Both the position numbers and the translations under genes were made by a program. From positions 1-35,658 of the forward strand of contig JADLAB010000368.1 in NCBI GenBank assembly GCA_020848455.1: a DNA stretch of 35,658 bases, read 5' to 3'. This document shows, one piece after another, positions 3,725 through 35,658 of the stretch (the stretch's first letter is position 1; each line of letters begins with the position of its first letter). This DNA is from Polyangiaceae bacterium (GTDB taxonomy: Bacteria; Myxococcota_A; Polyangia; Polyangiales; Polyangiaceae). The notes beneath the pieces were generated by a model. It saw nothing but the letters and a program-made list of their open reading frames with translations, had not been told where the DNA came from and made no database searches.

Positions 3725-3817
3725 GTGCATGAGGCACGCCGGGCACAGCAACCCCGCCGCCCCCGGGCCGCGGCGCGTCGTGGCATTGCTCGCGGACGAC
3801 CGAACGTGGGACGCTGC

Positions 3818-3823
3818 TAAGGT
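3818..3823 (+). promoter_or_regulatory. -10-like TAAGGT, 7 nt before a GTG start
   Basis: TAAGGT is followed by exactly 7 nt and then the GTG at 3831. That is where a transcript would begin, so the kinase mRNA may be leaderless. No Shine-Dalgarno sequence lies before 3831. The same geometry is seen at 32831-32836 and 32991-32996. Confidence 0.45.
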
Positions 3824-3830
3824 GACGAGC

Positions 3831-12768: not shown

Positions 12769-15162
12769 TCAGTCTTCCGACTCGCCGCGCCGCACGCCCG
12801 GGCTGTCGTAGCTGACCTCGCTGTCGGCGTCGCCGCCCGCGTAGCCCGAGGCCCGGTACTCGCCAGTGCCGCGCACCTCCATGCCCATCGCGCCCTCGTT
12901 CACCTGTCCGAAGGTGGCGTGCTCGCCCGACACGGCCGGGTTCGCCTGGCCGACCTGCACCACGATCGACACGAAGGCGGCGGGCTTGAACCCCTCGTCC
13001 GGCCCGTTCGTGTTCGTGATGTACTCGATGCCCGCGCCGGCCAAGAGGCCGATGGAGGTCGTGTTGCCGCCCTCGCCCAGGATGGGCACCGTGGGCGCGA
13101 CGCCCGCGTAGGCGAGGATGCCGAGCCTGTCCTGGTCGAGGTCTTGGATGAAGCCACCCACCTGGAAGGCGATCGGGAAGGCCTGCCGCTCGACCGGGTC
13201 GTAGCTGTCGATCGCGAAGGCGAGGCCGACCGCTCCCAAGATCTTGCGCGTGATGAGAGGCCGCTCGACCCAGGGCGCACGGGTGATCTGCAGCGTGGCG
13301 AGCATGGCCGGCACGGTGAAGTAGCCGCGCACGCAGTTGCCGGCGCCCTCGACGGTCTCGAAGTTCATCTCGCCGCAGAGCGGCGCCGTGTAGACGGTCA
13401 CCGACCCGATGAGGCGCCGCAGGTCGGACGGGCGGACGGTGCCGTGCAGGCGAGCCATGCGGCCCGCGTCCGCGAGCAGGACGATGTTGCCGTCGGCGCT
13501 GAGCGGGTCGCTCGACACCTCGATGCGCAGGCGGGACTCGCCGTCGATGATGAGCTGCGGGATGTGCAGCGTCGCGTCGTTCGGCGTGACCGTCCAGCGG
13601 CTCTGCCAGATGGGAGCGTCGTTCGGCTTGTCGGTGCGCCAGATGGCGACGTGGAGGGCGAGCGGCGCGACCAGGCGTCGCTTCGTCTGACCGAGCAGCT
13701 CGATGCGGCAATCGCCGCGCAGGATCGGCTCGGGGGCGATGACGAGGCCCTGGTGCGCGAGCGGCTGGCCCGTCGGCCGCGACTCGGGGATGAGCCGCGG
13801 CCCCTGGATGGGCACCGGCTTGATCGGCTCGGCGAGCTTGCCGCGCGGCGGCTCCGGGCCGCCGCCGTCGCCGTCGTCGACCGGCGGCTCGTCCGGGGTG
13901 CCGCCGTCGGGGGGCTCCTCCGGGGTCGGTGGCGGCTGGGTGGCGCCGGGGGGCCGCGGCGCACCGGGGGGCGCACCCGGGGGCGCGCCGGGCGGTGCGG
14001 CGCCCGGCGGGGCCGCGCCCGGGAGCTTCGCTCCGGGCGGGACGGCACCGGGCGGCATCGGCGGGATGCCGCCGGGGCCCGGCAGCGCCTTGAGCGTCGG
14101 CGGACCACAATCGATCTGCAGATCGGTCGCGAGCGGATCCGGGAAGAGCATCGGCGGGTTGTCCGCGCTCACGAGATCCTCGAGCGCCGGGATGGAGACC
14201 CGGAAGGTGGCGCTCACCACGTCGCCCGTCGCCGGGTGGTCGAGGTTGAACGCGGTCACGCGGAACGACGTGCCCGAGGGGAAGACGCGCAGCGCCTTGC
14301 CATCCGGCAGTCCACACCCGCCGCTGCCGACCTCGATGACCGGCACCGTGAAGAAGCGCTGGAACGTCTGCACGCGCGCGTTGCCGCAGCTGTCGACGAC
14401 CGCGACGTACTGGAAGTCCGCGAGCTCGGAGGCGACGGGCCACTGCAGGCCGAGCGAGAGCTCGACCATGTCGGGCGTCGGCGGCATGGTCTGCGGCTCG
14501 TCGCGCACGCACGGCAGCTTCAGGACCGTGCCGGGCGCGACCGGCTGGTCGACGGGCGGGTACGAGCAGACGTGGCTGTACGGGCGGCGGCCGAGCAGGC
14601 CCGGGTCGAAGAGCAGCCGGCCCTGCGAGCTCGCGCGGCTCGGGGTGTTCGGCGCGCCCTTGCCCTGGACGGCGATGGGGCGCCAGATCGTGATCGGCAG
14701 GGGCAGCGTGGGCGTCTGGGCCTTGATCGACACGAGCATCGCGTCGCCCGGCTCGACCTGACCGCTCTGCGGCGCCTCGGTCTCGGTGCCGATCGCCTTC
14801 GCGTCGGAGAGGCTGCATCCCTGGGAGCAGACCCACTCGCGCGCACCGCGCCGGGCGCCCTCGATCACCATCGGGTCGACGCCCTGCACCTGCATCCAGG
14901 TCTTGCGGGCGTCGGGGAAGATCTCACTCGCCGCGCGGGCCTCGGCGGTCCTCGGGGCGCCCCCTGCCACGACGAGCAGTTGGAGCGCGCCCTTGAAGTC
15001 GGCCTTCAGCTCGCCGGGATCGGGCTGGGCCTCGGCCGGCGGCGCCCACAACAGGGCGCCGAGCGCGCCGAGCGCGCCCAGCCATGCGCCGAGCCGCGCG
15101 GACCCACGTACCCTGGCGCGCTTCGAGTGCGCGCCGCCTTCAGTGGTTTGTCGTCGAATCAT
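12769..15162 (-). CDS. Large secreted protein of unknown function with Pro/Gly/Ala-rich linker
   Basis: This is a 797-residue protein from the ATG at 15162; a GTG at 15216 adds 18 residues and sits 8 nt after a -10-like hexamer. The N-terminus is basic, followed by a hydrophobic run (LGAWLGALGALGALLWA) and a likely cleavage site AEAQ, so it is exported. The first 350 residues contain Cys pairs (CSQGCS, CSYPP, CGLP) and beta-rich sequence. A long linker of PPGA/APPG repeats and an acidic EPPDGG stretch joins this to a C-terminal beta-rich domain (GFIQDLDQDRLG, GLLAGAGIEYITNTNG). That domain resembles an outer-membrane or surface barrel-like region; this is inference from alternating pattern only. 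No catalytic motif is seen. It lies downstream of a lipoprotein and a 143-residue protein on the same strand, suggesting a shared envelope role. Confidence 0.8.
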   Translation of the reverse strand: MIRRQTTEGGAHSKRARVRGSARLGAWLGALGALGALLWAPPAEAQPDPGELKADFKGALQLLVVAGGAPRTAEARAASEIFPDARKTWMQVQGVDPMVIEGARRGAREWVCSQGCSLSDAKAIGTETEAPQSGQVEPGDAMLVSIKAQTPTLPLPITIWRPIAVQGKGAPNTPSRASSQGRLLFDPGLLGRRPYSHVCSYPPVDQPVAPGTVLKLPCVRDEPQTMPPTPDMVELSLGLQWPVASELADFQYVAVVDSCGNARVQTFQRFFTVPVIEVGSGGCGLPDGKALRVFPSGTSFRVTAFNLDHPATGDVVSATFRVSIPALEDLVSADNPPMLFPDPLATDLQIDCGPPTLKALPGPGGIPPMPPGAVPPGAKLPGAAPPGAAPPGAPPGAPPGAPRPPGATQPPPTPEEPPDGGTPDEPPVDDGDGGGPEPPRGKLAEPIKPVPIQGPRLIPESRPTGQPLAHQGLVIAPEPILRGDCRIELLGQTKRRLVAPLALHVAIWRTDKPNDAPIWQSRWTVTPNDATLHIPQLIIDGESRLRIEVSSDPLSADGNIVLLADAGRMARLHGTVRPSDLRRLIGSVTVYTAPLCGEMNFETVEGAGNCVRGYFTVPAMLATLQITRAPWVERPLITRKILGAVGLAFAIDSYDPVERQAFPIAFQVGGFIQDLDQDRLGILAYAGVAPTVPILGEGGNTTSIGLLAGAGIEYITNTNGPDEGFKPAAFVSIVVQVGQANPAVSGEHATFGQVNEGAMGMEVRGTGEYRASGYAGGDADSEVSYDSPGVRRGESED
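13941..14070. repeat. GC-rich low-complexity tract coding PPGA/APPG repeats
   Basis: Imperfect 12-15 bp units coding (minus strand) GAAPPGAAPPGAPPGAPPG inside the large secreted protein. It resembles the repeat insert of the ABC exporter at 26728-26902 in protein sequence. Boundaries are approximate. Confidence 0.6.
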
Positions 15163-15224
15163 AGGAGCCGAGGTGGTGCCAGCAGGAGCGTCCGGCTCGG
15201 ACGCTGCTCGAAGCACCGCGAATC

Positions 15225-15280: not shown

Positions 15281-16486
15281 TCACTGGATCGTGATGAGGC
15301 TCGTTTCGCACGCCGGGGTGGCGCGCAGCTCCGGGGTGACGCGCACGCGCGCCGAGCCGCCCGGCCCGGAGTTCACGGTGATGGCCACCACGGGCTGTTG
15401 CTCGTCCGACGAGGTCGTTACCGAGGCCGGCTGCGGCGACAGGACCGTGAGGTCGGTGCTCGCCACGTCGACCCGCATCTGCACCGGCCGGAACTCGGCG
15501 TCGTACGCCGACAGCTCGGCGACCTGCTGCCCCTGCTCGAGGGGCCCGAGGCTCGGGGCCGTGGTGACCAGCCGGAAGAGCCGCGGCTCGGCCGCGACGC
15601 GCAGCTCGCGCTCGGTCGTGTCCGCCCCGCTCAGCGCCGCGAAGCGGACCGCGTCGCCGCCGAGGTCGCTGAAGCAGAAGTAGAAGGCCGGCGACTCGCC
15701 CACCTCGTCGAGCAGGACGCGCAGGCGGCTCACGCGGACGGCGCAGTCGACGCTGTTCGACAGGGCGGCCTCCGGGTCGAGCGACTGCACGACGACGGGG
15801 GCGTTCTTGATCGTGGCCGGCGCCTTCGCGGGCGGCAGGGCGCGCACGGTGACCTCGCGCGCGCGGATCTTGCCGGCGGGCCACTTGTCCTCGGCGATGC
15901 TCGGCACGGGCCCGGTCGCGCACTTGAGCTGCGCGTACGTGGCCCCGACGGTGTTGAGGTTGCCGTCGACGCCCCCGACGATGAACTCGAAGCTCGAGGC
16001 GCCCGGGGGCAGGCCCGCAGCGCTCACCTCGATGGGCTTCGAGTCCTCGCGCCCGTCGAAGCGGATGTCGACGTTGCCGGACCAGTCGGACATCGAGCGG
16101 AGCAGGAAGCGCGCGTAGCCGTCGTCCTGCGCCGTGCACCGGAACGTGCCGCTCAGGTACTCGCAGGTCTCGTCCACCGCGACGAGCTCGAGCGAGCCCG
16201 GCGGGTCGAGACGCACGTCGACGAACGCCCCGCGATCCGCGTCCTTCCCGGTGTGGTCGGACATGCGCAGCTGTACGACCTTCTCGTACGGCTCCTGCCG
16301 CGGCAGCACGGGCAGCCCGGTGTCGTCGAGCAGGTCGGCGGCGAAGAGCGGCACGTCGTCCACGATGACCTCGAGCAGGCCCTCGGCGAGGGGGTGGTTC
16401 GGGGCGACGCAGCCGAGGGGCGTGAGCGCCGCGGCGGACCCGGCCGCCCCAAGCCAGGCGTAGCGAAGGCGCGAAGGGGTGCTCAT
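15281..16486 (-). CDS. Putative lipoprotein, unknown function
   Basis: This is a 401-residue protein with signal sequence MSTPSRLRYAWLGAAG and lipobox LTPLGC followed by VAPN, so it is probably lipid-anchored in the envelope. The rest is beta-rich with scattered cysteines (VDETCEYLSGTFRC, LKCATGP, VDCAVRV, YFCFSD, TPACET). It reads like repeated Ig-like or fibronectin-like strands, including DVASTDLTVLSPQ and VVAITVNSGPGGSARVRVTPEL at the C-terminus. No enzyme motif is visible. The ATG at 16486 overlaps the stop of the preceding 143-residue ORF by 4 nt (ATGA), so the two are probably translationally coupled. The large secreted protein gene follows after a 118-nt gap. I do not recognise the family. 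Confidence 0.82.
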   Translation of the reverse strand: MSTPSRLRYAWLGAAGSAAALTPLGCVAPNHPLAEGLLEVIVDDVPLFAADLLDDTGLPVLPRQEPYEKVVQLRMSDHTGKDADRGAFVDVRLDPPGSLELVAVDETCEYLSGTFRCTAQDDGYARFLLRSMSDWSGNVDIRFDGREDSKPIEVSAAGLPPGASSFEFIVGGVDGNLNTVGATYAQLKCATGPVPSIAEDKWPAGKIRAREVTVRALPPAKAPATIKNAPVVVQSLDPEAALSNSVDCAVRVSRLRVLLDEVGESPAFYFCFSDLGGDAVRFAALSGADTTERELRVAAEPRLFRLVTTAPSLGPLEQGQQVAELSAYDAEFRPVQMRVDVASTDLTVLSPQPASVTTSSDEQQPVVAITVNSGPGGSARVRVTPELRATPACETSLITIQ

Positions 16487-16914
16487 CCGGTGTAGATCTC
16501 GGTGTACTCGGTCCCGAAGGGGTGACGGTGCCACGCGTAGGCGGCCCGCGGGAAGCCGGACTCGTCGGTGTACTCGCACTGGCCGAGCTCCCATTCGGTG
16601 TGCCAGCTGCTCGTGCCGGTGGTCTGGTCGACGCTCAGGGAGTGGGCGGTGACGTCGTCGTCGGCCTCGCCCTGCTTGTGCTCGATCGCAACCTCGCCGC
16701 GTGCTGCGTAGATGTTGATGGTGATCATGCCGTCTCCCGTTCGGATCGTGGTCGTTTCGCCAGCGGGGCTCGACGTCGTCGCCGTCGGTGTCTCGCCGGA
16801 ATGGACGGGGCGCGCGCCCTCGTCGATGTACTTCTCGAGCACGGACACCGGCACGCGCGCGACCTTGCCGCCGGGCATCGGAATCGTGAAGCGGATCTCG
16901 GTGTCGTCTTGCAT
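16483..16914 (-). CDS. Small acidic protein with aromatic-rich C-terminus, unknown
   Basis: This 143-residue protein has no signal peptide or membrane segment. The N-terminal part (EIRFTIPMPGGKVARVPVSVLEKYIDEGARP) looks like a short structured leader. A Thr/Ser-rich linker follows, then a strand pattern (MITINIYAARGEVAIEH). The C-terminus is rich in Trp, Tyr and His (SSWHTEWELGQCEYTDESG, YAWHRHPFGTEYTEIYTG) with a single Cys. GGAG lies 6 nt before the ATG. Coupling by ATGA to a lipoprotein gene suggests a shared function. The leader-plus-tail layout could suggest a modified-peptide precursor or a small secreted effector, but no modifying enzyme is nearby and I assign no function. Confidence 0.72.
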   Translation of the reverse strand: MQDDTEIRFTIPMPGGKVARVPVSVLEKYIDEGARPVHSGETPTATTSSPAGETTTIRTGDGMITINIYAARGEVAIEHKQGEADDDVTAHSLSVDQTTGTSSWHTEWELGQCEYTDESGFPRAAYAWHRHPFGTEYTEIYTG

Positions 16915-17052
16915 GCGCTCCGTCGGGGGTCGGCCCCTCAGCCTCCACGCGTTCGCACGAGTCGGCCGGCAGCATCGCGGTCGCCCCAGCGCGGCCCACG
17001 ACCCTGCCTCACGGCCCCCAGCCTCATGTCCAGGCCGGAGCCACGGTCACGC

Positions 17053-17058: not shown

Positions 17059-17364
17059 CCGCGAGTCGGCGCCGCAATGCACGACCTCCCGGCGGCGGCG
17101 CCGTGCTCGGGCGCGCGCTCGTCCTCGCCTTCGGCACGTCCTACCCCCGACGTCGCCGTCGCAGGGGTGGGGGGGCGGCAAGGCATAGGATCATGAGACG
17201 GAGGGGCCGCCGCGTTTGTTTCGTGCCGCCCCGCCGGGAACGTGCTCGGGGCTCCATCGCTCGGGCGCGGGAGCCGTCGCCGGCGCCGCGTGGGCCCGGC
17301 GGTCGGCCCTCGTCGTCCTCGCTCCTCGGGTTGCGCGCCAGCGGCGTCCGTGGTCCAAGTGGGC

Positions 17365-17370
17365 TAGGAT
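17365..17370 (+). promoter_or_regulatory. -10-like TAGGAT before the kinase at 17386
   Basis: TAGGAT lies 15 nt before GTG 17386 and 66 nt before the alternative GTG 17437. A start point about 7 nt downstream would give a leader of about 8 nt to GTG 17386. Confidence 0.4.
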
Positions 17371-17385
17371 CGGGGTCCGGCCGCG

Positions 17386-20300
17386 GTGCGGTTCGACCCG
17401 TCCGCCTCCCGTCGCAGTCCAGGCTCGAGACAGAACGTGACAAACAGCGCCAGGCCAGTCGACACGCGCGTCGGCACCGTCGTCGCAGACAAGTACCGGA
17501 TCCACCGCCTCCTCGGGCAGGGCGGCATGGGGAGCGTCTACGAGGCCGAGAACACCAGCATCGGCAAGCGCGTCGCGCTGAAGTTCCTGCACATGAGCGC
17601 CGACCAGGACGACACGACCCTGGCGCGCTTTCACCGCGAGGCCCGCGCCATCTCGGCGGTCGAGAGCGCCCACATCGTGCAGGTCTTCGACTGGGGCCAG
17701 GACGGCGCCGGGCAGCCCTTCCTCGTGATGGAGCTGCTCGAGGGCCGCGATCTCGCCGAGCGCATCAAGCAGCACGGCCGGCTGCCGGTGAGCGAGGCGG
17801 TGCGCTTCGGCGTCGAGGCGCTGCGCGGGCTCGCGAAGGTGCACGCGGCCGGGATCGTGCACCGCGACCTCAAGCCCGAGAACCTGTTCCTCGTGATGGG
17901 CGACGACGAGCTCCTGCACGTCAAGATCGTCGACTTCGGCCTGTCGAAGCTGATGGAGCCCGAGGGGCGCGTGAGCGGCCCCGGCTTCACCGACAGCGCG
18001 CGGCTGACGCAGCAGGGCACGATCATCGGCACGCCTCTGTACATGTCGCCCGAGCAGGTCGAGGCGCTCGACGTCGACCACCGGACCGACCTCTGGTCGA
18101 TGGGCGCGATCCTGTTCGAGTGCCTCGCCGGCGAGCCGCCGTTCATGGATCGCTCCTACGCCCGGCTCGTGATGGCCATCTGCCAGCGCGATCCGCCCGA
18201 TCTCTGCAAGCTGAACCCCGAGGTGCCCGCCGTCCTCGCCGCGGCGATCCGCCGCGCGCTCTACCGCGAGCGCAACGAGCGCTACCAGGCGGCGCGCGAC
18301 TTCGGCGCCGCGCTCGCCACGGCCTGGCCCGAGGCGCGGGCCGCCTACCAGACGACCGTGCCGGCTCCCTCGGGCGCATCGGCCGCGCTCCCGGACGCTC
18401 CGCGGGTCCAGGGGACGCTCCCGTCCGCGGCGCTCTCGGCGCCCGTCGCCCCGCTCGGGCCGGGCGCGCCGACGCCGCGGCCCAGGCCCGAGAGCCCCCA
18501 GCCGAGCGCCCCCGGCTCGGGCGGACCGCTCGACGCCACCATCGCGGCGCAGACGCGCGGCGCGGCCACGGTCTGGCTCGCCGACGCCCCGGCCTTCTCG
18601 GTCTGGCGCGGCGAGGTGGACTCGCCCGACCGGCTGCGCATCGAGGCCTCCGACGGCAGCGTGCGCGATCTCCGCCTCGAGCCCGTCGGCAAGCTGAACC
18701 TCGGGCGCGTGGAGCGCATGGGCGACGAGGTGAACCAGCTCGTCTACCCCGACGTCGCCTCGCGTCTCGCCGCGACGCTGCGCCACGACGGCGTGCGCTG
18801 GTGGCTGCGCCGCCGCGACGAGTGCAACGTGCCGGTGCAGGTCGGCACGCGGGCGCTGCAGCGCGGCGAGGAAGCTCCGATGGTGCACGGCACGGTCGTG
18901 ACCGTGGGCGCCATGCACGCCACCTTCGTCGACCGGCGCTACGTGCAGCGCATCGTGCCGGCGGGCACCGTCGACCCCGCCTCGGGGATGCTGGCGCGCG
19001 GCGGCCTCGAGCAGGAGGTCGCGACGGTGCTGCAACAGCGCGAGCGGCACGGCCTCGCGCTCTTGCAGCTCGCGCCCGACCAGCAGAAGGGCGACAACCC
19101 GGTGAGCGTGCGCGTCGCGGCCGCGGTGCACCGCAGCGCGCCGAGCTCGGTGGTGGCCCGCGAGGGCGACACCGTGGTGCTCATCGTGCGCGGCGACGAG
19201 CCGGTCCAGCAGAGCACGGCCGCGGCCGCGCTCGAGACGGCACGCGCCGCGGGCGCCACCGTGCTCGCGACCGGCTACTGGCTGCTCGAGGGCGAGGCGA
19301 CCCACGCCGGCAGCGAGGTCGAGCTCGCGCTCAACGCCATCATCGCGGCGGCCGGGCCGCTCGGTCGCGGCCGCGGCACCATCGTACCGCTGCGCGCGAG
19401 CCAGCCCGACGTCCGCATGAGCATCGCGCAGGACGTGCTCACCGCGGCCAAGAATCCGAAGCAGCAGATGCTGCTCTTCGCCATCGAAGACCAGAACGCG
19501 CTCCTGCAGATCGGCGCCTCCGTGGTCTCGGCGCTCGAGCAGGAGCTCGCGGCCGTGATCGCCACGCAGGTCGGGCCGCAGGCGCTCGTCACCCGCCTGG
19601 CGCCGGGCGTCGTCGGGGCCTGCGTGCCGCGCAAGATCGTCGCCTCCGAGCTCGGCGTCGCCGTGCAGTGCGAGTGGCACGCCCGTCCGCCGATCACCGA
19701 CGGTCAGGTCGAGCTGCCCCGCACGCTCTCGTGGGAGGAGGCGTTCACGGGCCAGGCGATGGAGCGAGCCCAGGAGCTGTCGCGCGAGTGCGGCGACCAG
19801 CACGGCGTGCTCTCGGCCCTCTCGGGCGGGCTGCCGCATCCGATCGCGGGGCGGGTGCATGCCGCCATCAGCGCCTCGAGCGCGGTCGAGCGCGTCAAGA
19901 TGCTCTTCGACGTGCTCGAGGGTACCTGGCGCCTCATCGCGGTGGTGCTCGCTTCGGCCTACTTCGCGACGGCGCGCGAGACCGACGACCACAAGGCGAT
20001 CCGCCTGTTCCACGAGCGCACGAAGACGCGCGAGGGCCTGCCGCTCGGCAGCTGGCGCGAGCTCGCGCGCATCGCGGCCAAGGGCTTCGAGGGCGCGAGC
20101 GACCCCATCGGTCAGCTCGCCAAGGATCTGCTCGACGTCAGGCTCACGCAGAACCAGACCTTCGACACGCTGTCGAACCTGATGCACAACGAGCGCAACA
20201 GCTTCGCGCACGGCCACTACACCGAGGCCCGCGCCGAGGCCGATCTGCGCGAGTTCGAGCAGATGACCCGCATCATCTTGCGGGCGCTGCGGCCGCTCGC

Positions 20301-20664
20301 GGCCTGGACGCTCGTCAGCGTGCAGCGCACCGAGCCCGACCTCTACGGCGAGCTGCAGACGGTCGAGTTCGTCGATCACACCGGCCCGTACTCGACCGGC
20401 GCGCGCCGCCGCATCGGCTTCAACAGCCCCGTGCGGCTCGCCAACGTGGTCTACCTGGCGCGCTGGCGCGACGGGCTCGTCCTGCCGCTCGAGCCCTTCG
20501 TGCGCCGCCTGGTGTCGGGCGACAACTACGGGCTGTACTGGATGGACCACCTGCCGCGCGCCGGCAGCTGCAACATGAGCGCCGTCGTGTCCGGCGACAC
20601 GCTCACGACCACGGTCGACCCGCGTCGCCTGCCGCCGCTGCTGCGCAGCCTCGTCACGAGCTGA
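17386..20664 (+). CDS. Ser/Thr kinase with FHA-like, GGDEF-like and HEPN-like regions
   Basis: This 1092-residue protein begins with a complete Hanks-type kinase: GQGGMG, K66 (VALKFL), H159-R-D161 (HRDLKPEN), D183 (DFG) and PLYMSPEQ. A Pro/Ala linker (about 325-390) leads to an FHA-like segment (about 420-515; GKLNLGR, HGTVVTVGAMHATFVDRR). Next is a fold like a degenerate GGDEF cyclase (about 535-655; REGDTVVLIVRGDE where GGDEF would lie, then ATGYWLLE). A second, weaker similar unit may follow. The C-terminal region is helical and contains HNERNSFAHGH, giving R937-N-x3-H942, which fits the R-x4-6-H signature of HEPN ribonucleases. No membrane span is seen. GTG 17386 is chosen; GTG 17437 is also in frame. 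The kinase is certain; the other domains are pattern-based inference. Confidence 0.9.
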   Translation: MRFDPSASRRSPGSRQNVTNSARPVDTRVGTVVADKYRIHRLLGQGGMGSVYEAENTSIGKRVALKFLHMSADQDDTTLARFHREARAISAVESAHIVQVFDWGQDGAGQPFLVMELLEGRDLAERIKQHGRLPVSEAVRFGVEALRGLAKVHAAGIVHRDLKPENLFLVMGDDELLHVKIVDFGLSKLMEPEGRVSGPGFTDSARLTQQGTIIGTPLYMSPEQVEALDVDHRTDLWSMGAILFECLAGEPPFMDRSYARLVMAICQRDPPDLCKLNPEVPAVLAAAIRRALYRERNERYQAARDFGAALATAWPEARAAYQTTVPAPSGASAALPDAPRVQGTLPSAALSAPVAPLGPGAPTPRPRPESPQPSAPGSGGPLDATIAAQTRGAATVWLADAPAFSVWRGEVDSPDRLRIEASDGSVRDLRLEPVGKLNLGRVERMGDEVNQLVYPDVASRLAATLRHDGVRWWLRRRDECNVPVQVGTRALQRGEEAPMVHGTVVTVGAMHATFVDRRYVQRIVPAGTVDPASGMLARGGLEQEVATVLQQRERHGLALLQLAPDQQKGDNPVSVRVAAAVHRSAPSSVVAREGDTVVLIVRGDEPVQQSTAAAALETARAAGATVLATGYWLLEGEATHAGSEVELALNAIIAAAGPLGRGRGTIVPLRASQPDVRMSIAQDVLTAAKNPKQQMLLFAIEDQNALLQIGASVVSALEQELAAVIATQVGPQALVTRLAPGVVGACVPRKIVASELGVAVQCEWHARPPITDGQVELPRTLSWEEAFTGQAMERAQELSRECGDQHGVLSALSGGLPHPIAGRVHAAISASSAVERVKMLFDVLEGTWRLIAVVLASAYFATARETDDHKAIRLFHERTKTREGLPLGSWRELARIAAKGFEGASDPIGQLAKDLLDVRLTQNQTFDTLSNLMHNERNSFAHGHYTEARAEADLREFEQMTRIILRALRPLAAWTLVSVQRTEPDLYGELQTVEFVDHTGPYSTGARRRIGFNSPVRLANVVYLARWRDGLVLPLEPFVRRLVSGDNYGLYWMDHLPRAGSCNMSAVVSGDTLTTTVDPRRLPPLLRSLVTS

Positions 20665-20759: not shown

Positions 20760-23700
20760 ATGGCGACCGCAGCGTCCAGAGCCCGCGAGGCGGGCGACGT
20801 CCTCGAGGGGCGCTACCGGCTCGTGGGTCGCATCGGCCAGGGCGGCTTCGGCGACGTGTGGCGCGCCGAGGAGCTCTTGCCCGACGGCTCGGCGCTCCGC
20901 GAGGTGGCGCTCAAGCTCCTGCGGGTCGACATCGCCGAGACGCAGGACTGGACCGAGGAGGCGCGCATCATCGCCTCGTTCCGGCACCCGGCGCTCGTGA
21001 CCATCTACTCGGCGGGGATCCTGCACCTCGACGCCGACACGCCGTTCGTGGCGATGGAGCTTCTGCGGGGCGACACCTTGGCCGAGCCCATCGCGCGCCA
21101 GGAGCGCGTGGCGTGGCGGCGCGTGCTGTGGTGGGCGCGCGAGACGGCGGCGGCCCTCGACGAGATCCACCGCGCCGGCGTGGTGCACCTCGACCTCAAG
21201 CCCTCGAACCTGTTCCTGACCGAGGAGGGGCAGCTCAAGGTGCTCGACTTCGGCATCGCGCAACGCGGGCGCGCGCGGCGCGAGGAGCCAGCGCGGCCGG
21301 CGGCGCGCGCCGCGGCGCCGGCCCTCGAGCTGCCCGCGCCGTCCCCGGACGCGATGTCCACGGCCGAGTTCGTGGTCGAGCAGGAGCGGCGTGCGGCGGA
21401 GGCCGCGCGCACCCGCGAGGTGCTGGGGACTCGCACCTCGAGCGGCTCGCGCACGGTGGTCGGCACGCCCGGCTTCATGGCGCCCGAGATCTTCGAGGGG
21501 GGCGAGCCGAGCGCCGCGGCGGATGCGTACGCGCTCGCGGCGTGCATCGTGCAGCTCGCCACCGGCGAGCTGCCGCAGCGCGTGGGGCCGCGCCCGACGG
21601 GCAGCGTCGACCCGAGCGCGGCGCGCGTGTGGTTCAGCGAGGTGCAGGCCGCGACGGTGCGCGGTTACCTCCGCGAGCTCGCCGCCGATCCCGCGGGGCT
21701 TCCGGCGGCGCTCGTCGCGCTCTGCAAGCGTTGGCTGGCGCTCGATCCGCTGGCGCGCGGCGTGGAGCGCGGTGGGCTGCGCGTGGAGCTCGACGTCGTC
21801 TGGAGCTGCCCCCACGGCTGGGGCGGCAACCCGTACCGCGGCCTCGAGCCCTACCGGCCCGAGGACGAGGGCAAGCTCTTCGGTCGCGCCGAGGACGCCG
21901 CGCGCCTCGGCCGAGAGCTCTGCGACCAGCCGGCGGTCGTCTTGCAGGGCGTCGGTGGCGTCGGGCTGCGCTCGCTCGCGGTGGCGGGCATCGTGCCCGA
22001 GCTCGCGCGCGCCTTCGCCGACGACCGCGACGACTGGCAGGCCGTCGTGGTGGAGCTCGGTACGGCGCCGGACGCGGCGCTCGCCGCGGCGCTCGCGCCG
22101 CTCGTCGGCGAGCTCGAGGCGGATCCGGAGTCGCGGCCCGCGGCGTCGGCGCGCCCGACCGAGCCCGAGGCCGGGCCGGGTGAGGCGAGCGCGTGGCTCG
22201 AGCTCCTGCGCACCTGGGCGTCCGGCGCGCACACCGGTGCGGCGCTGGTCCTCGTCGGGCTCGAGCGCCTGCTCGAGGTGCCGGCGCACCGGAGCCGGCA
22301 CCTCGAGGCGCTCGTCACCGGGCTCGCAGGCGGGGTGCGGGGCCTGCGGCTGCTGGCGACCCTGCCGGAGGACCGCACCGTGGAGATCCTGCGGCGTGAC
22401 GCCCTCGGCACGGCCGTGCGGCCCTTCCTGCGCTTCCTCGGGCCGCCGCCCGCGGGCGCGGTGCGCGACATGGTGCTCGCCCCGCTCAAGGCGTCGGGGG
22501 TGCAGCTCGGCGACCTCGACGCGGTGACCCACGAGCTGCGCGCCGAGCTCCTGCGCGACGAGACGCGCCTGCCGCTCGTGTCGCTCGCGCTCGCCGCGTT
22601 CTGGCAGTCGGCCGGTGCTGCCGGGGCCCTCGACGGAGCTCGCTGGCAGGCGCTCGGGGGGCTCGTGGGCATCGTGGCCCGCCACGCCGAGGCGGTCTTC
22701 ACGGGGCTCGAGCCCCACGAGCAGCACGTCGCCGCGGGGCTGCTGCTGCGCCTCGTGAGTGCCGACGGCCGCTCCTGCGCGGTCGAGGAGCGGGCCATCG
22801 CGAGCGCCTTCGACGACGTGGCGTCCTTTCCGAACGTGCGCGACACGCTGCTCGCGGCGCGCCTGCTCGTGCGCCAGCGCGGGCGCGTGCGCCTCGGGCA
22901 CGATCGGCTGCCCGAGGTGTGGCGCCGGCTCGTCGACCTGCGCCTCGAGAACGTCGAACGGCTGGGCTTCCTCGAGGAGCTGCGCGACACGGCGCGGCGC
23001 TGGGTCGAGGGCGGACACCGCAAGGAGGAGCTGTGGCGCGGGCACCAGCTCGCCGAGATACGGCGCCACGGCGTCGCCGGCGAGCTGTCGGACGACGAGA
23101 CGGCCTTCGTCGAGGCGTCCCGCCGCGCCGCGCGCCTGCGCTGGGGCATGCGCGGCCTCGCTGCCGTGCTCGTGGTCGCCGCGGTGGTCGGCGCCGTGGC
23201 GCTCGAGGCCGCGGTCTCGGCGCGCGCGGCGGCGCACGAGCGCGCGCGGCGGGACGCCGAGCAGCGCGAGCTCGTGTCCCGCATGGTGACGCGCAGCCGG
23301 CGCGCGAGCGACCCCTACGTGCGCGTCGCGTACCTCGCGGCCGCGATTCGCGAGGGCACCGACGACCCGGTGTTGCCGCTCGAGCTGTGGCGCGACGCGA
23401 GCGATCTGCCGCGCGCCGAGTTCCTCTCGCTCGAGCGCGTGGCCAAGCCGAGCTTCCCGTGGACCCAGCGCTGGTTGCTCGGTGGCGCGGGCAGCTCCAC
23501 CCTGACCGTGTTCGACTTCACGCCGGTCGAGGACGCATCCTGGGGCCCCGTCATCCACCGCTTCCGGCCGCACGCTCAGGGCGTGGACGACTACGTGGCG
23601 TTCCCGTTCACGAGCGCCTTCGTGACGCGCGGGCTCGACGGTGGGCTGCGCGTGTGGGTGCTGCGCCGCGCCGGCGAGATCGTGCTCGCGGCCGAGTCGC

Positions 23701-25394
23701 CGATGCGCTGTGCGCGGGGCGTCAACGCCGTGCTCGTCGCCGAGCGCGCGCCGGTGGTGGCCTGCGCCACGGCCGAGGGGCTGGCGCGCTGGGACCTGCG
23801 CAGGCCCGAGTCGGCCGACGTCGACCCCTTCGAGGGGCGGCTGCTGCACCTGTCCTCCGACGGGAGCTGGCTCGCCGCGGCGCGGGGTCGGTCGGTGGTG
23901 TTCTGGCAGCCGAGCGCCCCTCGCCGCATCGAGCTCGAGGTCGCCGAGGTCGTCACGGCGGCGCGTTTCAGCCCGCGCGATCCGGTGGTCGCGGTGCTCG
24001 GCGCGACCGAGGTGGGCGTCTACGAGCTCGACGCGAGCGGCGCGCGGCTCGCCGCGGCGCGTCCGGTCGAGCGCGACACCTTCGACCTCGCCTGGCACGA
24101 GCGCGGGCTCGACATCGGGGTGTGCGGACACGGCGCGCGCGCGCGCTGGTACTACCTGCGCAAGGGCCCGCGCGCCCCGGACGATCCGGCACCCGACCCG
24201 AGGACGTGGCCGTGCGGCGCGCCGCGCCCAGGGCAGCCGCCGCGCCTCACCCAGCTCGACGACTACGGCGACCTGCTCGGCGAGGGGCGCAACCTCGGGC
24301 CGCGGATCTATCCGAACGGCTGGCGGCTCGCCGACGGCAAGCTCGTCACGGCCGACCTCGTGGTCTTCGATCCGGCGTCGAGCGGCGCCCGGCGCCTCTT
24401 GTCCTTCCGCGGCCGCAGCGAGGCGGGCGTGAGCGAGAAGCCGGCCCTCGGCGAGAGCGCTGCCTTCGTCGCGCGCACCGGTCCGGACGAGGTCGTGTGG
24501 CAGGTGGGCTCGGAGATCCGCGTGTACCGCGTCGACGGCACGCGCGTGCGCACCATCCAGAACGCTCACCTGCTCGCGCCCTGCCCGGACGGGCGGCTCC
24601 TGGCCTGGCGCAAGCGCGATGCCGCGACCTGGGAGCTGTTCGCGGCGCGCCACGACACGGCGCTCCGCACCGTGCCGCGCGAGCCCGCGTTCTTCGTCGG
24701 CGCCGACCCGGACTGCCGCTCGGTGTTCCTGCAGCGCACGAGCGGCGAGCTCCTGGCGGTCGATCCGGCCGACGCCTCCGCGCCCCCGCGCCCGCTCGAC
24801 AGCGCCGGCGCCTTCGTGCTCGGCGGCTACGTCTATCAGGCGCGTCCGAGCGCCGCGCGCGGCGGCCTGCCGGCGGGCCTGTGGCTCGGGCTGAGCTCCG
24901 GGGCGATCGTGCGGCTCGCAGGGGGCACGGGCGAGGTCAAGCCGTACGGTCACGCGACCCCGCGCGCGACGGCGCTCGCGGACGGCCCCGAGCCGGGCGA
25001 GCTCCTGTTCGCGGACGACTCGGGGATCGTGCTCCGGGCGCCGGGCGCGCGCGACCACAGCGTGCTCGACGGCTCGTCCGGCGACGAGTGGGAAGATCTG
25101 CTGCTCCTGCCGCGTCACCGCGCGCTCCTGGCGACGACGGCGCACTCGGTCGCCGTCGTCGATCTCGACCGGCACGAGCTCGCCTTCCAGCAGCCGACGC
25201 CGCCGCGCGGTCGCCTCGCGCCCTGGGACGAGGAGGGGAGCGTGCTCGTGTGGTCGGAGGCCTTCATGGGCGCGCCGCAGGGCGAGGTCGTGCCGGTGGG
25301 ACCTGCGCTCGCCGGCGCGGTCGCGAACGCGGTCTCGAACCTGGTCGTGACCGTGCGGCCCGGCCGTGGGCTGGCGGTCGAGGTGAAGCGCTGA
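20760..25394 (+). CDS. Ser/Thr kinase fused to STAND-like module, membrane segment and propeller-like region
   Basis: This is a 1544-residue protein. The kinase has GQGGFG, K52 (VALKLL), catalytic loop H143-L-D145 (HLDLKPSN, Arg replaced by Leu), D163 (DFG) and a 70-residue Ala/Glu insert before GTPGFMAPE. From about 365 the sequence NPYRGLEPY...GKLFGRAEDAARL matches the entry to nSTAND modules. Its P-loop (G397-VGGVGLRS405) has Leu403 where Walker A needs Lys, so ATP binding there is doubtful. A winged-helix-like region (about 610-770) follows, then a membrane helix (about 797-820; LAAVLVVAAVVGAVALEAAV) and a coiled stretch (RRDAEQRELVSRM). The last 700 residues are repeated beta strands with WD40-like character and should form one or two propellers, probably periplasmic. 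The ATG at 20760 fits the -10-like site. Confidence 0.9.
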   Translation: MATAASRAREAGDVLEGRYRLVGRIGQGGFGDVWRAEELLPDGSALREVALKLLRVDIAETQDWTEEARIIASFRHPALVTIYSAGILHLDADTPFVAMELLRGDTLAEPIARQERVAWRRVLWWARETAAALDEIHRAGVVHLDLKPSNLFLTEEGQLKVLDFGIAQRGRARREEPARPAARAAAPALELPAPSPDAMSTAEFVVEQERRAAEAARTREVLGTRTSSGSRTVVGTPGFMAPEIFEGGEPSAAADAYALAACIVQLATGELPQRVGPRPTGSVDPSAARVWFSEVQAATVRGYLRELAADPAGLPAALVALCKRWLALDPLARGVERGGLRVELDVVWSCPHGWGGNPYRGLEPYRPEDEGKLFGRAEDAARLGRELCDQPAVVLQGVGGVGLRSLAVAGIVPELARAFADDRDDWQAVVVELGTAPDAALAAALAPLVGELEADPESRPAASARPTEPEAGPGEASAWLELLRTWASGAHTGAALVLVGLERLLEVPAHRSRHLEALVTGLAGGVRGLRLLATLPEDRTVEILRRDALGTAVRPFLRFLGPPPAGAVRDMVLAPLKASGVQLGDLDAVTHELRAELLRDETRLPLVSLALAAFWQSAGAAGALDGARWQALGGLVGIVARHAEAVFTGLEPHEQHVAAGLLLRLVSADGRSCAVEERAIASAFDDVASFPNVRDTLLAARLLVRQRGRVRLGHDRLPEVWRRLVDLRLENVERLGFLEELRDTARRWVEGGHRKEELWRGHQLAEIRRHGVAGELSDDETAFVEASRRAARLRWGMRGLAAVLVVAAVVGAVALEAAVSARAAAHERARRDAEQRELVSRMVTRSRRASDPYVRVAYLAAAIREGTDDPVLPLELWRDASDLPRAEFLSLERVAKPSFPWTQRWLLGGAGSSTLTVFDFTPVEDASWGPVIHRFRPHAQGVDDYVAFPFTSAFVTRGLDGGLRVWVLRRAGEIVLAAESPMRCARGVNAVLVAERAPVVACATAEGLARWDLRRPESADVDPFEGRLLHLSSDGSWLAAARGRSVVFWQPSAPRRIELEVAEVVTAARFSPRDPVVAVLGATEVGVYELDASGARLAAARPVERDTFDLAWHERGLDIGVCGHGARARWYYLRKGPRAPDDPAPDPRTWPCGAPRPGQPPRLTQLDDYGDLLGEGRNLGPRIYPNGWRLADGKLVTADLVVFDPASSGARRLLSFRGRSEAGVSEKPALGESAAFVARTGPDEVVWQVGSEIRVYRVDGTRVRTIQNAHLLAPCPDGRLLAWRKRDAATWELFAARHDTALRTVPREPAFFVGADPDCRSVFLQRTSGELLAVDPADASAPPRPLDSAGAFVLGGYVYQARPSAARGGLPAGLWLGLSSGAIVRLAGGTGEVKPYGHATPRATALADGPEPGELLFADDSGIVLRAPGARDHSVLDGSSGDEWEDLLLLPRHRALLATTAHSVAVVDLDRHELAFQQPTPPRGRLAPWDEEGSVLVWSEAFMGAPQGEVVPVGPALAGAVANAVSNLVVTVRPGRGLAVEVKR

Positions 25395-25426: not shown

Positions 25427-26146
25427 TCAGTCGACGGACGGAAGGGTCGCCTGCACCACCGTCTTGCGGCCCAGGGTCGCCGCGGGTGGCCGGAAGGGCA
25501 GGGCGACGAACTTGCGCTGCATGCACTCGGCGGCGGCGCGGTAGGCCGGCAGCTCGGCGGTGGCGGCGACCGAGCTGGGATCGACCGTGCCGTCCGGGCG
25601 CACGACGAACTCGAGCAGAACCGCGTCGGGTGGCAGGATCTGGCCGTCGGGAGCGCGGCACTCCTGTACGAGCTGCCAGTAGATCTGCTCGCGTGCCATG
25701 CGCTCGACGGCGGGGTTCGACAGCCCCGGGCGGATCTCGATGTGGCCGGCGCTCAGGCGCGGCCCGGAGGGCGCGGCCGGCGCGGCGAACTCGATCGCCG
25801 TGGCCGACGGGAGAGGCTCGGTCCCGCCATCCGGCGGCGGCACGTCGGTGCCGACGAGGGTGCCCCCGTCGGGATCGGTGGGGGAGGGAGTCGACTTCGG
25901 CGCGGCGCCCACGATCTCCGCGAGCGCCTTCGGATCGGGCGTGGTCGGGACGTGCTCGACCTCGAGGGGACCGTAGGCGTCGCTGCCGCCGGACCCGCCG
26001 GCGGCGGGCGTGGCTCGCGGTGCGTCGCAGCCGAGCCCGGCGAGCGCCGCCGCCGCGACGAGACCGACGACGGCGGCCTGCCCCGAGCGCGCGCGCGCTC
26101 GACCTGCGCGGCGCGGAAGTGCTGTGGAGGCGCACGCGCGGACCAT
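25427..26146 (-). CDS. Lipoprotein with AgmX/PglI- or TonB-like C-terminal domain
   Basis: This is a 239-residue protein with a basic, Arg-rich N-terminus, a hydrophobic run (AAVVGLVAAAALAGLGC) and lipobox LGC followed by DAPRA. A Pro/Asp/Gly-rich linker (about 60-125) would span periplasm or cell wall. The C-terminal domain (about 135-239) contains REQIYWQLVQECRAPDG, AVLLEFVVRPDGTVDPSSV, AAECMQRKFVALPFRPP and VVQATLPS. This follows the AgmX/PglI C-terminal pattern found in myxobacterial gliding and envelope proteins, which is related to TonB C-terminal domains. The two conserved cysteines (QECRA and AECMQ) are present. It probably interacts with envelope partners; none is encoded next door. 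No strong ribosome binding site precedes the ATG. It is divergent from the ABC exporter gene. Confidence 0.82.
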   Translation of the reverse strand: MVRACASTALPRRAGRARARSGQAAVVGLVAAAALAGLGCDAPRATPAAGGSGGSDAYGPLEVEHVPTTPDPKALAEIVGAAPKSTPSPTDPDGGTLVGTDVPPPDGGTEPLPSATAIEFAAPAAPSGPRLSAGHIEIRPGLSNPAVERMAREQIYWQLVQECRAPDGQILPPDAVLLEFVVRPDGTVDPSSVAATAELPAYRAAAECMQRKFVALPFRPPAATLGRKTVVQATLPSVD

Positions 26147-26172
26147 GCTCGGCCCTGAGCCTTTCGCGGCGC

Positions 26173-26204
26173 GAGCCCCGAAGCAAGCGCGCTCTTCGGG
26201 GCTC
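26173..26204. promoter_or_regulatory. Perfect 11-bp inverted repeat in divergent region
   Basis: GAGCCCCGAAG and CTTCGGGGCTC are exact reverse complements separated by 10 nt. The site lies between the start of the AgmX-like gene (26146, minus) and the ABC exporter (26278, plus). Half-site spacing of two helical turns (centre to centre 21 bp) fits a dimeric repressor operator; a cruciform or RNA hairpin is the alternative. Confidence 0.5.
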
Positions 26205-26258
26205 CGAGGGGACGTTCGCGCTGCGTGCGCGCCGGATCATCCCGCGGCCATCTCGGTG

Positions 26259-26264
26259 TAGGCT
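26259..26264 (+). promoter_or_regulatory. -10-like TAGGCT before the ABC exporter
   Basis: TAGGCT ends 13 nt before GTG 26278, giving a predicted leader of about 6-7 nt. No ribosome binding site is seen. The 11-bp inverted repeat lies about 55 bp upstream, within reach of RNA polymerase. Confidence 0.4.
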
Positions 26265-26277
26265 CCCCGTTCCGCCG

Positions 26278-28359
26278 GTGAAGGACCTCATCGCCATCAT
26301 CCAGCGCGCGCGGCGCGGCTTCAAGGGTCGGCTCGGCGTGCGCCTGCTCGCGGTCATCGCCGCGGCGCTCGGCGCGGGCGCGGTGGCCGGCGTCCTGCCG
26401 GCGGTGATCGGGCAGGCGCTCGGCGCCATCGGCGGCGGAGCGACGCTCGGGCCCCCGAGCGGCCTCGGTAAATGGGTGGCGCTCGTCATGCCCACCGCTG
26501 CGTGGGGCGTGGTCCTCTTCACGCTCCTGGCGACGGTGGCGACCGTGGCGATGAGCGTGTTCGCGAGCCGCATCGCGACGGCCTTCGCCGCCGAGGTCAC
26601 GGCCGCGGTCCGCATCGAGATGCTCGAGTCGGTGCTCGGCGCCTCCGCCCGCGACGTCGCCGAGGCGGGCAACGCGTTCACCGCGCCGCAGAAGCCACCC
26701 GGGCTCGCAGGGCCCGTCGTGCCGCCCGGTGCCGCTCCGCCCGGTGCCGCTCCGCCCGGTGCCGCTCCGCCCGGTGCCGCTCCGCCCGGGGCTGTGCCGC
26801 CCGCTGCGCCGAAGGGTCCGCCCGGGGCTGTGCCGCCCGCTCCGCCGAAGGCCCCGCCCGGGGCGTCGCCGCCCACTGCGCCGAAGGCCCCGCCCGGGGC
26901 GGCCTCGAGCGCGGCACGCGGCACCGAGGTCGTGAAGCTCGCCATCACCCGTGAGAGCGCGATGGTGAGCGAGTTCGCGGTGAGCGTGCTGACGGGTCTG
27001 CCGCAGTCGATCACGACCCTCATCATCCTCGCGGTCGAGCTCATGACGAGCGACGCCTGGTTCGCGCTCGGCGGTGGGCTCGTGCTCTTCGTGACGTCGC
27101 GCCTGCTCGCCGATCGCGCGAGTCGCCGCGTGGGTGAAGCGCGGCGCGAGATGACGACCGCGGACGCGGCCGTGTTTGCGAGCCTGCAGGAGAAGCTCTC
27201 GACCACGGAGGATCTCCGCCTCTGGGGGGCGCGCGGCGAGGCGCTCGGCGAGTTCGCGGCGACGGCGCACGCCTGCTCGGACGCGCGCACGCGCTTCGCC
27301 GAGGCGCTCGCGGTGGCCGGCCAGATCAAGAGCGTGTTCACCGCCATGTCGCCCCTGCTCATCGTGGTCGCGCTCAAGCTGTCGGGGCGCAGCTACGACG
27401 CCAGCGAGATCGCGAAGCTGCTCCTGCTCGTCCCGCTCCTCATGTCGAGGCTCGAGGCGCTCGACGCGCTGCGCTCCGGTCTCGTCGAGCGGGCGCCGCT
27501 GCTCGTGGCGACGCTCCACATCATGAACCTGCCGCCCGCGCCCGCGCGCGCGCGCGACGCCCGGCGCATCGATCTGGCCGCCGTCGACGGCCACGTGTGC
27601 TTCGAGGGCGTGAGCTTCACGCCGCCCGGCGCGGCCCGCCCGGTGCTCTCGGACGTGTCGCTCGACATTCCGCCGGGCAGCGTCGTCGGCGTGTGCGGAC
27701 CGAGCGGCTCGGGCAAGAGCACCGTCGTGCGCATGCTGCTCCGGCTCGACGAGCCGGACGCGGGCCGCATCACCCTCGACGGCACGGAGGTGGCCTCCAT
27801 CGAGCCCGAGCAACTGCCCGCGCTGTTCGGCGTCGTGCGGCAGACCTCGCAGCTCCTGCAGCGCCCGGTGCGCGACAACCTCGGCATCGGGCTCGAGCCC
27901 AAGCCGTCCGATGCAGCGATGCTCGAGGCGCTCGGGCGCGTGCACCTGCACGAGCTCGCCCGGGAGGCGACGCCCGACCGCAGCCTCGCGACGCCGTACA
28001 CGCACAACCCGCCGAATTTCTCGGGCGGCGAGGTGCGGCGCCTGTTGCTCGCGCGCATGCTGCTCGGGCGCACGCCGGTGTGCGTGCTCGACGAGCCCGA
28101 GGCGGGCCTGCCGAGCGGCACCGCCGAGGAGATCCTGCGCTCGATCGTCGAGCTCGCCCGGGGCTCGGACGGGAGCGACGGCGAGCCCGCCCGCAAGGCG
28201 CGCACCTGCCTCGTGGTCACGCACGCGCCGCACCTGCTGCCGTCCGCCTTCAACGTGGTGCTCGACAAGGGTCGGGTCATCGCGACCGGCACCCACGCCG
28301 AGCTGCAACAGAGCTGCCAGCCCTACCGGGCGCTCCTCGCCGACGCCCTGAAGGACTGA
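26278..28359 (+). CDS. ABC exporter with Pro/Ala/Gly repeat insert in transmembrane domain
   Basis: This 693-residue half-transporter has a membrane domain fused to an ATPase. Hydrophobic segments include VRLLAVIAAALGAGAVAGVLP, LFTLLATVATVAMSVF, ITTLIILAVELM, ALGGGLVLFVTSRLLA and IKSVFTAMSPLLIVVALKL. The ATPase has Walker A GPSGSGKST, Q-loop VVRQTSQ, signature FSGGE (in place of LSGGQ), Walker B VCVLDEPE and H-loop VVTHAPH, so it should hydrolyse ATP. Between membrane segments 2 and 3, at residues about 140-208, lies an insert of four GAAPP units and then three 12-residue P-G-A-x-P-P units. This is where the first intracellular loop would contact the ATPase. GTG 26278 is chosen from the hexamer upstream and because the frame before it is not membrane-like. 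The substrate is unknown. Confidence 0.9.
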   Translation: MKDLIAIIQRARRGFKGRLGVRLLAVIAAALGAGAVAGVLPAVIGQALGAIGGGATLGPPSGLGKWVALVMPTAAWGVVLFTLLATVATVAMSVFASRIATAFAAEVTAAVRIEMLESVLGASARDVAEAGNAFTAPQKPPGLAGPVVPPGAAPPGAAPPGAAPPGAAPPGAVPPAAPKGPPGAVPPAPPKAPPGASPPTAPKAPPGAASSAARGTEVVKLAITRESAMVSEFAVSVLTGLPQSITTLIILAVELMTSDAWFALGGGLVLFVTSRLLADRASRRVGEARREMTTADAAVFASLQEKLSTTEDLRLWGARGEALGEFAATAHACSDARTRFAEALAVAGQIKSVFTAMSPLLIVVALKLSGRSYDASEIAKLLLLVPLLMSRLEALDALRSGLVERAPLLVATLHIMNLPPAPARARDARRIDLAAVDGHVCFEGVSFTPPGAARPVLSDVSLDIPPGSVVGVCGPSGSGKSTVVRMLLRLDEPDAGRITLDGTEVASIEPEQLPALFGVVRQTSQLLQRPVRDNLGIGLEPKPSDAAMLEALGRVHLHELAREATPDRSLATPYTHNPPNFSGGEVRRLLLARMLLGRTPVCVLDEPEAGLPSGTAEEILRSIVELARGSDGSDGEPARKARTCLVVTHAPHLLPSAFNVVLDKGRVIATGTHAELQQSCQPYRALLADALKD
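26728..26787 (+). repeat. Four perfect 15-bp tandem units
   Basis: GGTGCCGCTCCGCCC occurs four times head to tail, in frame, coding GAAPP four times inside the ABC exporter. Perfect identity suggests recent slippage and possible copy-number variation between strains. Confidence 0.85.
26785..26902 (+). repeat. 36-bp tandem units, three copies plus part of a fourth
   Basis: Units start at 26785, 26821 and 26857, with a 10-bp remnant from 26893. Each codes about 12 residues of Pro/Ala/Gly with one Lys. The units differ at a few positions, so they are older than the 15-bp array next to them. Confidence 0.8.
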
Positions 28360-34953: not shown

Positions 34954-35658
34954 TCAATCTGCGTCGCGGCAGCAGCGAAAGCCAGCCTCGTAGCCGAAGT
35001 CTCCCTCCAGGTGCGCCGTCGTCATCGGCCGGCAGCGGTTGCGGACCGGGCCCCACCAGCCCCCCTTGAGCCCGCTGCGCCGGGGCGCGCGCTCGTCCTC
35101 GCGCATCACCCACTCGTTGGCGTTGCCGTTCAGGTCGTGGACGCCGTCGCCGGATACGCAGCCGGGCCTGGACCCGGCCGGCACGCGCTGGTCGATGCCC
35201 TCGAAGGCGGCGCGGCAGGCCGGCTCGGCCATGCACGCGTCGTGCGCCTTGAAGGCGAAGGTGCGCGGCCGGTACGGGCGGTCGGAGTTGCAGATCGCGT
35301 CGGAGCGCTCGAACCCGTACACGAAGGGTCGCATGGCCTCGCCCTCGCAGGCGAAGTTGAACTCGCGCTCGGTGCACAGGCGCTTGCCGAGCGCGCCACA
35401 CAGCGCGCGCGCCTCGGGCCACGAGACGAGCGTGAGGGGGAGCTCGCCCTTGCGATTCGGCCACTCGTAGCGATCCATGCAGAATCGCAGCGCCACACGC
35501 TCCTTCACGGCGCAGCTGCTCGGGCCGTAGGCGAGGCAGTGGTGGCCGGCGACCGGGTTCTGTCGCGCGCACGGCTGCGACACGACCGGGCAGTAGCGCC
35601 CGGCCACGAGCGCCATCTCGGCGGGGCACGGGGAGGCGCCCGCGTCGGGCCCGCCGGC
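34954..35658 (-). CDS. FGE/SUMF1-like domain protein, 5' part outside window
   Basis: The frame stays open to the window edge. The 234 visible residues start PDAGASPCPAEM, typical of the linker before this domain, so the N-terminus (probably signal peptide or lipobox) is missing. Motifs of the formylglycine-generating-enzyme fold are present: RFCMDRYEWPN, PLTLVSWPEARALCGALGKRL, CTEREFNFACEGE, GVHDLNGNANEWV and LKGGWWGPVRNRCRP, ending GFRCC. About a dozen cysteines suggest an exported, disulfide-bonded protein. Related myxobacterial proteins are often called SUMF1/EgtB/PvdO-like. Catalysis is uncertain because the pattern of paired cysteines in true FGEs cannot be confirmed. A small lipoprotein gene follows on the same strand. 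Confidence 0.88.
   Translation of the reverse strand, partial: AGGPDAGASPCPAEMALVAGRYCPVVSQPCARQNPVAGHHCLAYGPSSCAVKERVALRFCMDRYEWPNRKGELPLTLVSWPEARALCGALGKRLCTEREFNFACEGEAMRPFVYGFERSDAICNSDRPYRPRTFAFKAHDACMAEPACRAAFEGIDQRVPAGSRPGCVSGDGVHDLNGNANEWVMREDERAPRRSGLKGGWWGPVRNRCRPMTTAHLEGDFGYEAGFRCCRDAD

Follow-up and report, generated by a model that had tools for sequence, protein, structure and literature searches.

Sequence comparison places a member of a previously unrecognised HEPN family behind the kinase, FHA-like and degenerate GGDEF domains of a Polyangiaceae protein

Does a Ser/Thr kinase of a Polyangiaceae bacterium carry an RNase-like HEPN domain at the far end of the same chain, and what could control it there? 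The gene lies in a 35,658-nucleotide stretch of DNA (contig JADLAB010000368.1 of assembly GCA_020848455.1), which was analysed as a whole and is called the window here. Its open reading frame runs from 17386 to 20661 on the + strand, with the GTG at 17386 as the predicted start, and encodes 1092 amino acids. The third-codon GC of this ORF is 0.96 and its codon-position GC is typical of a real gene. Since the codon-position GC fits the + strand ORF and homologs occur in the + frame, the long antisense ORFs (e.g. 17191-20550 on the - strand) were judged to be GC-rich artefacts. The domain identities, well supported by sequence comparison, make this a protein that combines a Ser/Thr kinase, an FHA domain, a dead GGDEF-derived domain and a HEPN domain in one chain. 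Its parts are:

17494 to 18285, + strand: Ser/Thr protein kinase domain, residues 37-300, catalytic motifs intact (Pfam PF00069 and motif positions)
18286 to 18567, + strand: Pro/Ala-rich linker that ends in the conserved LDATI...TRGAATVWL (alignment of the stretch preceding the FHA domain)
18598 to 18930, + strand: FHA-like domain, residues about 405-515, FHA profile match about 436-509 (hhalign; weak Pfam FHA matches in relatives)
18967 to 19380, + strand: GGDEF-derived domain without the GG[DE]EF active site, residues about 528-665 (hhalign and motif columns)
19438 to 19755, + strand: possible second degenerate GGDEF-like half, residues about 685-790 (hhalign in the same register, weak at P 0.016)
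19831 to 20325, + strand: predicted HEPN domain, residues 816-980, of a family with no entry in Pfam or NCBIfam (conservation and profile comparison)
19918 to 19932, + strand: E845-x3-R849, which matches the second HEPN motif Ex3[KR] (alignment; motif definition from PMC3710099)
20194 to 20211, + strand: R937-N-S-F-A-H942, predicted RNase active-site motif (ortholog and module conservation)
20326 to 20661, + strand: C-terminal domain, probably beta-rich, residues 981-1092 (order kept in distant fusions; a model of low confidence shows strands)

The original prediction had drawn attention to the RNSFAH in the C-terminus, which sits exactly at residues 937-942. From the composition of such a protein, 2.4 occurrences of R-x4-H would be expected, against two observed (864 and 937); the bare motif is thus at chance level and was rejected as evidence for HEPN. 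The form RN-x3-H is expected 0.05 times. The proposed check on R937 and H942 came out clearly: both residues, together with N938, are invariant in 22/22 aligned orthologs, including the kinase-less ones, at a mean column identity of 62%. In an alignment of 28 copies of the C-terminal module (260 columns), R937 is the most conserved column and H942 the fourth. The polar residue directly after the arginine is N938, with a weighted frequency of 0.89, and the histidine is lost in one of the 17 distant copies (L119). Because R937, N938 and H942 are invariant in the orthologs and R/H persist in the distant fusions, RNSFAH counts as more than chance. E845-x3-R849 was present in all 11 core orthologs aligned, and most distant copies retain the glutamate.

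The 28 module sequences were compared by hhalign with a profile built from seven HEPN proteins that had been found with the PF18737 and PF18735 models. The match extended over 104 columns at Prob 82.6 and P 9.6e-6 and superposed the RN..AH motifs, and the reversed-profile controls gave 0.1. New HEPN families were accepted at HHpred probabilities of 75-98% in PMC3710099. When six protein families of the locus were compared in 50 blocks altogether, a HEPN match appeared only in target residues 801-971 and 881-1051, in a comparison that used the target's own family only, and the remaining blocks stayed at background. Pfam MAE_28990 was matched weakly in 4 of the 22 orthologs (best E 0.0092). Among 18 divergent members, six Pfam families were weakly matched, and three of them are HEPN (MAE_28990, RiboL-PSP and Swt1). 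The curated cut-offs were missed for PF18737 (12.4 bits vs 26.8) and for PF18735 (best E 0.21, in one member), and the family of the module has no entry in Pfam or NCBIfam. PDB searches with the single sequence and with profiles returned nothing useful. The closest HEPN profiles are MAE_28990/MAE_18760-like and RiboL-PSP (PF18737, PF18735), which have in common with the target the RN..AHG motif and an upstream acidic residue. The target family differs from them in scoring below their cut-offs and in the addition of LPxPxA at the start, of an LGxW block and, at the C-terminus, of a probably beta-rich domain, which travels with the HEPN domain in the same order in distant fusions.

AlphaFold models built from two sequences (a shallow input; pLDDT 54 and 70) show a helical bundle in which the motif lies where its helix ends; in the four-helix HEPN fold the motif is positioned at the end of its helix, helix 3 (PMC3710099). 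In one of these models the helices span 22-51, 96-123/125-128 and 136-170, with the arginine at model residue 126. Foldseek searches with these shallow models gave no match with E < 0.8 for the longer model and none with E < 0.09 for the HEPN-only model. Among the PDB matches listed for the longer model were the HEPN structures 1wwp, 2q00, AbiV, MtlR and HepS, amid GPCRs and designed bundles; the first four are classed as HEPN in PMC3710099. For the HEPN-only model, generic bundles (e.g. FAT, vinculin) ranked first and there was no HEPN among the best 50, so the structural comparison does not decide the matter. The profile match, the weak Pfam matches and the second motif are three independent lines that all point to HEPN. 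The conservation of R937/H942 and the profile comparison support the HEPN-like C-terminal unit that had been predicted, and its assignment to a previously unrecognised HEPN family is well supported at the level of sequence.

At the other end of the chain, the kinase motifs had been described as complete, and they are: Pfam PF00069 matches residues 37-266 with E 1.5e-45, and VALKF (63), HRDLKPEN (159), DFGL (183) and SPEQ (221) were all located. Identification as a TOMM kinase/cyclase, PD-T4-6, PglW or MAD6 was rejected, since these matches cover the kinase domain alone and lie far under the cut-offs where these exist. In the linker that follows the kinase, we infer T385 or T395 to be candidate phosphorylation sites.

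A degenerate cyclase-like core and FHA-like binding had also been proposed, the latter without coordinates. Profile similarity places an FHA-like domain at about residues 405-515: against 38 FHA matches of the same genome, hhalign gave Prob 91 and P 1e-6 (reversed control Prob 1), and one ortholog as well as relatives have a weak Pfam FHA match. The canonical FHA residues are partly kept, with GR and SR retained, SRxH changed to SRxA and NGT missing. The cyclase-like core proved to be GGDEF-derived. Against 30 GGDEF matches of related genomes it gave Prob 82 and P 1e-5 (reversed control Prob 0.4), and the DPxTGLLxR of the GGDEF domain start is kept. The GG[DE]EF signature is absent from the alignment columns, where the site reads REGDTVV, VEETAV and similar, which makes the cyclase a dead one. 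This loss of cyclase residues is well supported, as is the conservation of the HEPN residues. At least four proteins of the FHA-GGDEF type are encoded in the same genome (contigs C65, C85, C217 and C465; FHA and GGDEF matches on the same contigs at adjacent coordinates), and such proteins are a plausible source of the FHA-GGDEF core.

With the part outside the kinase as query, 30 of the 184 genomes searched within the order gave matches. All close orthologs belong to the window's own taxonomic family, and in some genera every sampled genome has one. Eleven orthologs are without the N-terminal kinase and retain the FHA-GGDEF-HEPN-tail part. Since this core exists without a kinase, the role of the HEPN domain does not require a fused one and same-chain control by the kinase is not universal. 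Two relatives are without the HEPN R/H, namely L068 (4685-7813, - strand; a paralog on contig C152 of the window's own genome) and the more distant L064 (2-3763, + strand). Both retain the kinase, the FHA-like part, the cyclase-like part and the tail, which means that a catalytic HEPN domain is not needed for the architecture to function.

Distant relatives were found with module profiles in other families of Myxococcota, in a search that covered Myxococcota and plasmid and viral collections. These copies are 17-26% identical to that of the window and share with it LPxPxA, the LGxW block and RNx(2-4)AHG as well as the tail, probably beta-rich, at the C-terminus. The module occurs at the C-terminus of HsdR type I restriction subunits (L121/L065, L108, L109), on an FHA protein (L066), on NACHT/STAND NTPases (L067, L110, L116, L119) and, in reverse order, in front of a Ser/Thr kinase (L111, L113, L114, L115, L118). 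In the HsdR fusions (L121:8555-9322, L108:3172-3969, L109:5401-6195) it follows a T1RH-like C-terminal domain and has R/H intact. In the NACHT-type STAND NTPase L067 (2760-3572, + strand), the HEPN-beta module forms the N-terminus. No relative of the module was found in the plasmid and viral-contig collections searched, and a repeat of the phylum search from another centre stayed within the same phylum with almost no new relatives.

Directly downstream of the target lies a gene that could encode a partner:

20760 to 25391, + strand: Ser/Thr kinase and nSTAND1 NTPase, candidate partner (Pfam nSTAND1 3.8e-51, Pkinase 9.1e-30)

This kinase-nSTAND1 gene is the neighbour of 14/14 main-set orthologs that have a kinase and of 0/11 orthologs that lack one. 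One further kinase-bearing copy (L073) is without this neighbour. The kinase label changes independently only a few times in the tree, where the truncated contig L018 was wrongly labelled kinase-less. For these two reasons the link between the target's kinase and the nSTAND1 neighbour is suggestive only. Upstream, two large genes on the other strand (12772-15216 and 15284-16999, both -) are syntenic in several genera; neither has a Pfam match.

The reading that we prefer is that of a signal-gated HEPN effector, in which phosphorylation and the FHA domain gate a HEPN endoRNase through a dead GGDEF relay; we regard it as evenly poised between right and wrong. The HEPN domain is predicted to be a metal-independent endoRNase with a canonical R-x4-H site. 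The fused kinase would phosphorylate the linker in cis, and in kinase-less orthologs this would happen in trans. The FHA domain would then read a phosphothreonine, either on its own linker or on another protein, for instance the kinase-nSTAND1 neighbour. The dead GGDEF part, which may descend from an FHA-GGDEF diguanylate cyclase, would respond to FHA occupancy by changing the dimer geometry and so switch the HEPN domain. From the sequences we infer RNase activity, gating through a dimer, the phosphorylation sites and the nSTAND partnership. Counting against this reading are the incomplete set of canonical FHA residues, the eleven kinase-less orthologs, the two relatives that lost R/H, and the shallow models with their undecided PDB matches. 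The relay from FHA-GGDEF to HEPN is proposed by analogy with DgcB of Bdellovibrio, where FHA bound to the phosphorylated N-terminal tail switches the GGDEF domain (PMC6733907). DgcB likewise has FHA followed by GGDEF and is activated through its phosphorylated tail; however, its GGDEF domain is active and it has no kinase or HEPN domain, whereas the GGDEF part of the target is dead.

The protein also resembles Ire1 and RNase L, whose KEN domain belongs to the HEPN families (PMC3710099) and which likewise have a Ser/Thr kinase N-terminal to HEPN with catalytic R/H in one chain. These are eukaryotic proteins with KEN immediately after the kinase. Since FHA and GGDEF-like domains intervene in the target and its kinase is dispensable, it is not a member of the Ire1/RNase L family. 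It might tentatively be seen as a bacterial functional analogue, in which FHA-read phosphorylation, relayed via a dead cyclase dimer, would activate a HEPN RNase, and whose HEPN-beta module Myxococcota would have plugged into kinases, STAND ATPases and HsdR; we hold this to be possible rather than probable. The likeness is best read as one of logic, not of ancestry. The nSTAND1/EACC1-type conflict systems of multicellular bacteria are another point of comparison. In the sections of PMC7159879 and PMC8195603 drawn on here, the systems include parts of every kind seen in the target and its neighbour (kinase, FHA, cyclase, STAND and HEPN), and in the window an nSTAND1 gene is adjacent; the architecture of the target is not among the systems described in those sections, and the window showed no recognisable EACC1 or vWA-MoxR component. 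In HEPN/MNT toxin-antitoxin pairs (HepT/MntA), a HEPN RNase is controlled by covalent modification, as proposed here; Pfam scans gave no MNT partner among the window ORFs. The original prediction knew of no described architecture of this kind, and we likewise found no description of a bacterial kinase-FHA-GGDEF-HEPN protein in the openly licensed literature searched.

Could the helical domain be something other than HEPN, namely an unrelated four-helix bundle that has R-x4-H by chance? The 2.4 bare motifs expected by chance and the many unrelated bundles (FAT, vinculin) matched by the HEPN-only two-sequence model would allow it. We nevertheless consider this very improbable, given a HEPN profile match with nil controls, R/H among the top conserved columns of the 28 module copies, three different HEPN families among the six weak Pfam ones, and the appearance of 1wwp, 2q00, AbiV, MtlR and HepS in the match list of the longer model. 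A HEPN fold could also serve as a non-catalytic RNA- or protein-binding scaffold, similar to MtlR, in a housekeeping or developmental signalling protein. Such non-catalytic domains have been described (PMC3710099), the gene is syntenic, several genera have it consistently, and L068 and L064 keep the architecture with R/H lost. However, R937, N938 and H942 never vary among orthologs, and conservation of all three together with E845 would be unexpected for a pure scaffold. We regard this role as rather unlikely.

A third reading, to which we give little weight, makes the target and the adjacent kinase-nSTAND1 protein a two-gene sensor/effector pair for anti-phage defence or abortive infection, in which the HEPN domain would kill infected cells by RNA cleavage. 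The 14/14 against 0/11 adjacency of the main set would fit, as would the fact that the module turns up again on STAND NTPases and on HsdR subunits of type I restriction; both HEPN and STAND domains are typical of conflict systems (PMC3710099, PMC8195603). That adjacency, however, comes from few independent tree events and has a kinase-bearing exception without the partner. The PADLOC matches are of the generic kinase only, and the plasmid and viral contigs searched held no relative. The target is syntenic, with conserved flanking genes, and is kept within genera, unlike mobile defence genes, which makes a defence gene of that kind less likely.

As a signal-gated HEPN effector, the protein would offer a concrete bacterial case in which Ser/Thr phosphorylation signalling may be wired straight to the cutting of RNA. 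It would likewise be an example of a second-messenger enzyme, FHA-GGDEF, that has apparently been converted into a scaffold for signal relay. A kinase and a HEPN domain in one chain were already known from eukaryotic Ire1/RNase L. New is a HEPN family outside Pfam and NCBIfam, which in Myxococcota recurs as an exchangeable building block of kinases, STAND NTPases, type I restriction subunits and FHA proteins.

Further genes of the window were noted in passing. The ORF at 25486-28356 (+) has a C-terminal ABC-type ATPase and matches PADLOC mad3 with E 8.5e-21, which is probably generic ABC ATPase similarity. A kinase fusion with an FGE-sulfatase-like domain lies at 3726-6311 (+), and another FGE-sulfatase-like ORF at 34957-35616 (-).
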